NCBI RefSeq assembly: GCF_001559775.1
Contig: NZ_LOHX01000304.1
Span: 1-45,319, forward strand
DNA: 45,319 nucleotides
Direction of reading: 5' to 3'
Source of the DNA: Streptobacillus felis
GTDB lineage: Bacteria > Fusobacteriota > Fusobacteriia > Fusobacteriales > Leptotrichiaceae
The notes under the pieces are model-generated. The model was not told the DNA's origin. It did no database searches and saw nothing but the letters and a program-made list of their open reading frames with translations. A program made the position numbers and the translations under genes. This document shows, piece after piece, positions 2,768-4,975 of the stretch (the stretch's first letter is position 1; every line of letters begins with the position of its first letter).

Positions 2768-3709
2768 ATGGAAAGTAAATTAGCAAAAATTATTGCAGAT
2801 ATAGAAAAAAATAATAAGGTTGACTATAATACATTATTTATTAGAAAAGATTTAACAGATTTAGATGTTTTAGGAACAGTAGTATATTGCTTGAAAAATA
2901 ATATAGATGATGTTACAGAATCTTATGATTTAAATTATTCAGAAATTGAAAATTCATATTTTAATGATGGTGAAGTAGAGGATTTTCTTAAAAATTACAA
3001 TGAAAATGAAGATGATTATCAAGATGATGTTTTAAATGAATTTGTAAAAATTGCCATACATGAAAGTATAAAGAATACTAAAATAAACTTTTCGTTTAGT
3101 GATATTAAACAAGAAGCATTACTTGCTGTAATTAAATTCAAAAATGAATTTTATGAAAAACTTTCAAAATCATATGATTTAGAGTTTGTAAAAAATATTG
3201 TAAGACTATATATTAGAAGATATATAATAAGTTATCAATATACAGAACTATCAAATTATTCTGAACAAGAATACCTTTCATTACTATATATTAAAATTAG
3301 TAGCGAATTAAGTGAAGGAGAAAAGTTAGAAGATATATTAAACAGAATAGGTATAAGTAAAGAATACTATGAAAATTTAGTAAATGTGTATGAAAATAAA
3401 GAATTTTCTTTAACATATGATGAAATTAAAGAAGAGACAGAAAGAATTAAAAGAAAATATGAAATAGCTTTAAATACTAATAGATTAACGTTTTTAGAAG
3501 AAACAATACTTTCTATGTATTTAGGTGTTGATGGAACAAAGTTATCAGTTCAAGAAATTGCTAAAAAAAATAATACAGATAAAAAAAGTATACAAGAAAT
3601 AATAAATACGAGTATATTTAAATTATCACTAATATATAACTTTGATGTATTAAATGATTTAGAAAGAATATATTCTGATTTGGAGGGTATTAATGATAAA
3701 CTTATCTAA
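2768..3709 (+). CDS. Divergent sigma-70-like protein
   Basis: A 313-residue acidic protein whose layout follows a sigma-70 factor, with weak conservation. Residues about 90-155 resemble region 2: SDIKQEALLAVIKF aligns with the DLIQEG...F core of region 2.1/2.2, but the aromatic FSTYATWW-type segment that melts the -10 element is replaced by a non-matching helix ending in YIRRYIISYQ. Residues 185-222 resemble region 3. Residues 239-287 resemble region 4 (FLEETILSMYLGVDG, then an HTH-like stretch with VQEIAKKNNT). Residues 1-90 are acidic and unmatched. The 3' end overlaps the Nif3-family gene by 17 bp; in many Firmicutes rpoD lies just upstream of that family, which supports a sigma relationship by synteny. 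It is too degenerate to be the housekeeping sigma. It could be an alternative sigma factor or a sigma-derived regulator. Confidence 0.6.
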   Translation: MESKLAKIIADIEKNNKVDYNTLFIRKDLTDLDVLGTVVYCLKNNIDDVTESYDLNYSEIENSYFNDGEVEDFLKNYNENEDDYQDDVLNEFVKIAIHESIKNTKINFSFSDIKQEALLAVIKFKNEFYEKLSKSYDLEFVKNIVRLYIRRYIISYQYTELSNYSEQEYLSLLYIKISSELSEGEKLEDILNRIGISKEYYENLVNVYENKEFSLTYDEIKEETERIKRKYEIALNTNRLTFLEETILSMYLGVDGTKLSVQEIAKKNNTDKKSIQEIINTSIFKLSLIYNFDVLNDLERIYSDLEGINDKLI

Positions 3710-4460
3710 ATTAGTTAAGGAATTTGAAGAAATGTTTCCTAGAGAACTGGCTGAAGAATGGGACAACGTTGGACTTTTAGTTGGAGATATTAGAAAAAAA
3801 ATTAATAAAGTAATGGTTTGTTTAGATATAACTAAAGAAGTTGTTGATTTTGCAGTTAAAGAAAATGTAGATTTAATTATTTCTCATCATCCATTCATAT
3901 TTAAAGGACAAAAGAAAATATTACAAGATACTATTATAGGATCTAAGATTATAGATATAATTAAAAATGATATAGCAGTATATTCAGCACATACTAATGT
4001 TGATGCTGCTAAAGGTGGCTTAAATGAATATATTTTACACAAAATGAAATTAGAGGGTGAAATATTAGATGGAGATTTAATAGCTCTTAGAAGATTTAAT
4101 TTAAAAGAAAAGACTACTATAGAAGAAATAATTACTAAAATAAAAGTAAGTTTAAATATAGAAAATGTAAGATTAAGTAGAGCTAATGATAATAGATTGG
4201 TTAAAAAAATTGCAGTAACAACAGGAGCTGGAGATTCGTTTATTCCATTAATTAGAGGGAAAGTTGATTTGTTTATAACTGGAGATTTAAAACACCATAT
4301 TTCACTTGATATGGGTGAAGAAAATCTACATTTATTAGATATAGATCACTATGGTAGTGAGAAAATGGTAGTAGATTTATTTGAAGAAAAAATTAGACAA
4401 ATAGATGAAAGTTTAGAAATTTTAAAATTTGATTCAAAAGAAGTATTTGAATATTTATAA
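3693..4460 (+). CDS. Nif3-like dinuclear metal centre protein (YbgI/YqfO family)
   Basis: A 255-residue member of the Nif3/DUF34 family (PF01784), often annotated as GTP cyclohydrolase I type 2-like; the physiological reaction is not settled. Conserved metal ligands are visible: WDNVGLLVGD near residue 23, SHHP (His65, His66), AHTNVDAA (His100, Asp104), and the C-terminal GDLKHH and DIDHYGSE motifs. The length matches the short YbgI form; the PII-like domain found in the middle of the longer Bacillus YqfO is absent. GGAGG precedes the ATG, which sits 17 bp inside the end of the sigma-like gene, so translation is probably coupled. Last gene of its unit; a terminator follows at once. Confidence 0.9.
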   Translation: MINLSKLVKEFEEMFPRELAEEWDNVGLLVGDIRKKINKVMVCLDITKEVVDFAVKENVDLIISHHPFIFKGQKKILQDTIIGSKIIDIIKNDIAVYSAHTNVDAAKGGLNEYILHKMKLEGEILDGDLIALRRFNLKEKTTIEEIITKIKVSLNIENVRLSRANDNRLVKKIAVTTGAGDSFIPLIRGKVDLFITGDLKHHISLDMGEENLHLLDIDHYGSEKMVVDLFEEKIRQIDESLEILKFDSKEVFEYL

Positions 4461-4509: not shown

Positions 4510-4836
4510 TTGGTATCCCAGTTAATCGCAAGATTTATCTTGAGGAAAGTCCAAACTTCATAGAGCAATGGTGGCAGTTAACGACTGCTGGGAGTAATCC
4601 TAAGGAAAGTGCAACAGAAAGTAAACCGCCTATAAGGTAAGGGTGAAAGGGTGAGGTAAGAACTCACCAGAGATATAGGAGACTATATTTGCTTGTAAAC
4701 CCCACCAGAAGCAAGAATGAAATAAAAGATTATGGGGCTGCTCGTCCTTCTTTTGGTTATTCGCTCGAGTTTGTATGTAAATACAAGCCTAGAAAAATGA
4801 TTAACAAATACAGAATTTGGCTTATAGGGGTGCCAA
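4510..4836 (+). ncRNA. rnpB: RNase P RNA, class A
   Basis: The catalytic RNA that trims the 5' leader of pre-tRNAs, about 327 nt. The universal core is easy to see: GAGGAAAGTCC at 4542-4552, ACAGAAA...AAACCGCC at 4614-4630, the GGGTGAAAGGGTGAGG segment near 4640-4656, and ACAGAATTTGGCTTATAGG at 4810-4828. The ends are set by helix P1: TTGGTATCCC (4510-4519) pairs with GGGGTGCCAA (4827-4836), all ten pairs forming if two G-U wobbles are allowed. It has its own promoter and lies between terminators, as expected for a free-standing RNA gene. Confidence 0.95.
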
Positions 4837-4867
4837 TTTTTACCAATATAAAATAAAAAAAATATAT

Positions 4868-4946: not shown

Positions 4947-4975
4947 TTGACAAAAAGTTTAAGAAAGGTTATACT
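4947..4975 (+). promoter_or_regulatory. Near-consensus sigma-70 promoter of the hemW operon
   Basis: TTGACA (4947-4952), a 17-bp spacer and TATACT (4970-4975), the best promoter in the window. The start would be near 4982, giving a leader of about 60 nt before hemW. It probably drives the 12-gene run that ends at 17596. Confidence 0.85.

Follow-up and report, generated by a model that had tools for sequence, protein, structure and literature searches.

Sigma-70 Factors, Sigma Mimics, and the rpoD Neighborhood

Sigma factors are proteins that steer RNA polymerase to promoters. The closest described relatives of the gene considered here are the group 1 and 2 sigma-70 factors (RpoD/SigA and RpoS). 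The gene, called the paralog below, is an open reading frame (ORF) at positions 2768 to 3709 of a 45,319-nucleotide stretch of Streptobacillus felis DNA (NZ_LOHX01000304.1, the whole of which is referred to as the window). Its product shares with group 1 and 2 factors the order of regions 2, 3, and 4, the clamp-binding motif of region 2.2, the core of region 4.1, and the fold, and in most relatives the gene neighbors dnaG and rpoD. It differs from them in that the form carried by the Streptobacillus lineage lacks the promoter-melting aromatic residues, the -10 and -35 contacts, and the sigma finger, and even the more canonical paralogs of other genera form a separate, long-branched clade outside RpoD. 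The paralog is probably an unstudied regulator that binds RNA polymerase, as judged from its pattern of conserved and lost residues.

Sigma-like folds can also serve purposes other than promoter recognition. The PhyR-type sigma mimics of Alphaproteobacteria are the known example (PMC4598750), and the paralog might likewise be a mimic that binds an anti-sigma factor or other regulator rather than RNA polymerase. PhyR combines a domain like those of extracytoplasmic function (ECF) sigma factors with a receiver domain and binds NepR, whereas Pfam scans found no receiver domain in the paralog. Its best-kept residues, moreover, are those that bind the beta' clamp, making a PhyR-like role unlikely.

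A third comparison concerns the neighborhood rather than the protein. In other phyla, zinc-ribbon proteins of the DUF164/COG1579 family (FlgZ/CdsZ) are often reported beside rpoD, dnaG, and nif3 and have been linked to sigma-54 and RNA polymerase (PMC3372290, PMC8469502). They are unrelated in sequence to the paralog, and the corresponding Pfam model (PF02591) has no match across 98 Fusobacteriota genomes. One idea, by analogy of position, is that the paralog may functionally replace the DUF164 protein. No description of a degenerate fusobacterial sigma family was found in searches of the open-access literature; a paper on F. nucleatum names sigma-E as the studied stress sigma.

Why is such a protein of interest? 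Few transcription regulators of the Fusobacteriota are understood, and this one occurs in nearly all of the genomes examined from the phylum. Its family is a natural series, with a near-canonical sigma at one end and, at the other, a sigma-like protein that has no DNA contacts. Because the family is both nearly universal and graded, it allows a test of a general question: whether evolution can turn a sigma factor into an RNA polymerase regulator that does not act at promoters, and with what role.

A Degenerate Member of the Sigma-70 Family

Taken singly, the window protein says little about its ancestry. It matches no Pfam family, a phmmer search of PDB gave no match, and its score against the NCBIfam sigma70-ECF model (18.4 bits, E = 0.0013) lies below the cut-off of 42.9. 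Since these searches were uninformative, family profiles were built. Compared by hhalign with fusobacterial RpoD, the family profile gave one in-order match of 210 columns (E = 8.6e-7, probability 91.5%) spanning RpoD regions 1.2/2, 3, and 4, and near-ancestral orthologs match Sigma70_r2, r3, and r4. The order of regions 2, 3, and 4 that a sequence-only reading had followed in this protein is thereby borne out by the kind of profile comparison it had suggested.

Predicted structures point the same way. The Protein Data Bank matches listed by Foldseek for the AlphaFold model of the window protein are sigma factors (best E = 1.5e-3), as are those listed for the model of the Leptotrichia hongkongensis ortholog (best E = 5.6e-7; 50 at E of 0.001 or less). 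Template modeling (TM) scores are low (about 0.2) because domain placement in these modest models is uncertain; the models therefore back the family and not the structural detail. The ORF product is thus a sigma-70-family protein, on weak single-sequence and strong family-level evidence.

What remains of each sigma region? The parts are set out in Table 1. The acidic N terminus, some 90 residues that the sequence-only reading had left unmatched, does line up in register with sigma region 1.1 and a short region 1.2; the match is weak in Leptotrichiaceae (E = 0.01) and better in canonical orthologs (E = 1.9e-4). In region 2.2, residues D112, Q115, and E116 correspond to E. coli D403, Q406, and E407. 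The promoter-melting aromatics of region 2.3 (Y430, W433, and W434) are not kept in the window protein, in agreement with the earlier reading. In the alignments of the Streptobacillus lineage the sigma finger (region 3.2) was not found, only 0.07 of the listed -35 contacts are kept, and the region 4.2 helix has a net charge of -1.0 versus +2.0 in RpoD.

Promoter Contacts and Clamp Contacts across the Family

Not all orthologs are so degenerate. Seven genera (g20, g23 to g26, and those of families f2 and f3) carry a near-canonical paralog that matches Sigma70_r2, r3, and r4, r3 falling below the cut-off in f2. Among the sequences tabulated, all 11 canonical members retain the W433-W434 pair of the STYATWW segment intact, and none of the 70 others does. 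The pair has been lost in the other Fusobacteriaceae and in Leptotrichiaceae, most of these Fusobacteriaceae still keeping the second tryptophan. Even near-canonical members have exchanged the -35 contact R584 for A, V, S, or P; degenerate members have other, often acidic, residues at most of the -35 contacts, and in genus g4 the helix-turn-helix of region 4.2 is gone while the gene persists.

The clamp-binding residues tell another story. The DQE set formed by D403, Q406, and E407 persists in 24 of 29 Leptotrichiaceae and 34 of 44 degenerate Fusobacteriaceae, and the f6 outgroup has it as well; the remaining ten degenerate Fusobacteriaceae show only D/E swaps at these sites. At the residues that we take to be the clamp and -10 contacts (the -35 contacts were assigned likewise), identity to E. 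coli sigma-70 is 0.75 for clamp contacts in Leptotrichia-type members and 0.50 in Streptobacillus, versus 0.00 (0 of 12 listed) for -10 contacts in either. Conservation in all three groups is highest, or close to highest, in region 2.2. Mapped on the RpoD tree, the WW and degenerate states require three changes, and well-supported branches force at least two of these. The sigma finger and the contacts at -10 and -35 have been lost from Leptotrichiaceae and most Fusobacteriaceae on two or more independent occasions.

Could the protein nonetheless work as an alternative sigma factor with rewired promoter recognition, in which case canonical contacts are not to be expected? This is the main competing explanation. 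The seven near-canonical genera fit it, with their Sigma70 matches and intact WW pair, though their -35 contacts are changed, and two loci (L060 and L066) exceed the cut-off of the NCBIfam general sigma-70 model (53.2 versus 42.9). Conservation of the replaced segments among Leptotrichia-type members also favors it. The Streptobacillus lineage, however, has none of the listed -10 contacts, no sigma finger, and a net acidic region 4.2 helix, and g4 has dispensed with the 4.2 helix-turn-helix altogether. Rewired promoter recognition is accordingly a possible but less probable explanation. Of the roles offered by the sequence-only reading, an alternative sigma factor suits the canonical relatives, whereas an RNA-polymerase-binding regulator fits the Streptobacillus lineage best.

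Distribution, Gene Order, and Origin

A phylum search with targeted checks placed orthologs in 94 of 98 Fusobacteriota genomes, including some of 1.2 to 1.4 Mb. The gene is missing from G071 and from the reduced G060, and no copy turned up in G021 and G091, which are incomplete. The G071 locus, where rpoD lies 66 bp from nif3 and the paralog is gone, amounts to a clean natural deletion. At one further locus (L158, genome G046) the paralog match contains a single in-frame TGA, a sign of either a pseudogene or a sequencing error.

The commonest order among relatives is dnaG-rpoD-paralog-nif3, with rpoD no more than 150 bp upstream of the paralog in 19 mapped contexts. As most relatives carry the paralog between rpoD and nif3, its ancestral place was directly after rpoD. 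In Streptobacillus, g4, g5, and g7 rpoD has been separated while the paralog-nif3 pair remains, except in g7, which lacks a nif3 match. A canonical rpoD is indeed encoded elsewhere in the window genome (C285, directly after dnaG; region 2 E = 2.5e-24), just as the canonical TTGACA-N17-TATACT promoter at 4947, itself present as described, had led the sequence-only reading to expect; the genome also encodes a further sigma factor (C290).

The paralog overlaps or closely adjoins nif3 in nearly all contexts, which raises the possibility that it is a co-translated, metal-linked partner of NIF3 and that RNA polymerase was merely its ancestral partner. DUF34 proteins have been proposed as metal chaperones (PMC8469502), and His/Cys-rich stretches occur in paralogs of genera g15, g16, and g19. 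Yet G009 and G044, both 99% complete, retain the paralog with no nif3 match, and the Streptobacillus protein has no His/Cys-rich stretch while conserving the clamp-binding motif. A NIF3 partnership as the principal role is therefore quite improbable.

How did the gene arise? In the tree, the canonical members form one clade (support 100/100) with a long stem, outside the RpoD group. A duplication of rpoD confined to Fusobacteriota was marginally rejected by the approximately unbiased (AU) test (p = 0.049), long branches being in play, and a common clade of the paralog with all RpoD was not rejected (p = 0.13). A recent, local rpoD duplication was discarded on the phylum-wide distribution, nor does the tree favor it. 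The paralog is, by these comparisons, one old orthologous group and not a copy that drifted recently in Streptobacillus. Judged by its position beside rpoD and its region-1.1-like N terminus, rather than by the tree, the paralog likely derives from an rpoD duplication. The sequence-only proposal of a duplicated rpoD that drifted to a new role is thus supported in part, namely as to the sigma-70 homology, the separate canonical rpoD, and the ancestral position.

Selection has maintained the gene. Between Streptobacillus species, the ratio of nonsynonymous to synonymous substitution rates (dN/dS) is 0.10 to 0.20 for the paralog, 0.10 to 0.13 for nif3, and 0.08 for rpoD; the paralog is under purifying selection. 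In other pairs its divergence is about that of nif3, except that in g5 the paralog far outpaces nif3 (62% identity against 95%). Pseudogene decay was rejected on the dN/dS values and the conservation. Fast divergence in g5 and the loss from G071, where rpoD now abuts nif3, are what one would expect of a decaying relic without function; the intact ORF, the low dN/dS, retention even in small genomes, and nif3-like divergence in most pairs make this explanation highly improbable.

A Possible Role at the Sigma Site

How might a sigma-like protein without promoter contacts act? The family probably began as a functioning sigma factor in an operon of the order dnaG-rpoD-paralog-nif3, and that factor may have been a tandem copy of rpoD. 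In the Streptobacillus lineage and, separately, in most Fusobacteriaceae, ordinary promoter recognition would have been lost with the melting tryptophans, the -10 and -35 contacts, and the sigma finger, while the region 2.2 helix, which is kept, would still dock on the beta' clamp helices and the retained region 4.1-like domain could dock on the beta flap. Such a protein would bind core RNA polymerase where sigma does, read no promoters, and tune the formation of holoenzyme, by competing with RpoD or another sigma factor or by helping to load or hold the core. Because the clamp residues are kept, the promoter contacts and finger are lost, selection is purifying, and the ancestral place is in the rpoD operon, we give about even chances to the paralog being a sigma-derived, RNA-polymerase-binding regulator without ordinary promoter recognition. 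Here it is predicted that the protein binds polymerase and is inactive at promoters, and the way in which it would shift transcription is a prediction as well. More tentative is the broader notion that, across the phylum, a sigma-derived protein from the rpoD operon holds the sigma site, controls how much core each sigma factor receives, has lost its DNA contacts in parallel in Leptotrichiaceae and Fusobacteriaceae after starting out as a working sigma, and fills the rpoD-nif3 neighborhood held by DUF164 in other phyla.

Several observations weigh against this role for the paralog. AlphaFold confidence is modest (predicted local distance difference test score 61.9 for the window protein and 67.4 for that of L. 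hongkongensis; 6 sequences). The region 2.2 motif is partly altered in g4, g5, and g7. Leptotrichia-type members also conserve the segment that stands in for region 2.3-2.4 (0.75), and this conserved replacement could conceivably bind DNA in a new way. Finally, the extra conservation seen at clamp contacts is marginal when Streptobacillus is taken by itself (P = 0.07), and the sequences, being related, are not independent.

The Gene and Its Immediate Surroundings

The ORF is a real gene, because three genomes of the same genus carry orthologs that are 77 to 79% identical, with unchanged length and nif3 overlap, and because its dN/dS is low, as mentioned; one named public relative, Streptobacillus notomytis, was recovered by a contig scan. 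A Shine-Dalgarno-like GTGAGG precedes the start. The product of the downstream gene matches DUF34/NIF3 in Pfam (E = 3.6e-73).

Table 1. Features of the paralog and the adjoining gene in the window
Feature	Positions	Strand	Basis
Sigma-70-family paralog, 313 residues, degenerate	2768..3709	+	ORF call, orthologs, hhalign versus RpoD, AlphaFold 2/Foldseek
N-terminal helical domain resembling sigma region 1.1 (residues 1-53)	2768..2926	+	In-register alignment with RpoD N terminus; model helices 4-15, 20-24, 31-43
Shortened region 1.2-like segment (about residues 66-80)	2963..3007	+	Aligned with RpoD EPIKMYLREIG
Region 2.1-2.2 helices with putative beta'-clamp-binding motif FSFSDIKQEALL	3032..3139	+	Alignments, residue tables, model
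Former region 2.3-2.4 without STYATWW; W433/W434 replaced by L/Y; 0 of 12 listed -10 contacts kept	3140..3262	+	Alignments
Helical linker resembling region 3, without the sigma finger (region 3.2)	3263..3475	+	Alignments, model
Region 4-like domain; -35 contacts R584/R588/Q589 replaced by K/Q/E	3476..3637	+	Alignments
DUF34/NIF3 gene	3693..4460	+	17-bp overlap with paralog; probable shared operon

Directly upstream of the paralog, at 1480 to 2754, a codirectional gene encodes a 424-residue protein with a signal-peptide-like start and no Pfam family above the cut-off. It is about 74% identical in genomes of the same genus and was not found at the other Leptotrichiaceae loci checked. Directly 3' of nif3 lies a bacterial RNase P class A RNA (4510 to 4840; 277 bits).

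Elsewhere in the phylum, nif3 has in-frame stops at one locus (L131, genome G070) where the paralog ORF upstream is intact. The His-rich or His/Cys-rich paralogs come from loci L066, L071, L072, L149, L150, L154, L157, and L161 (g15 and g16) and L067 (g19). An example from g16 is HHHEHEHHHDHEEDHECSCGH, and such stretches usually lie in the linker that replaces region 3. Their composition suggests metal binding beside nif3, the proposed metal-chaperone gene.
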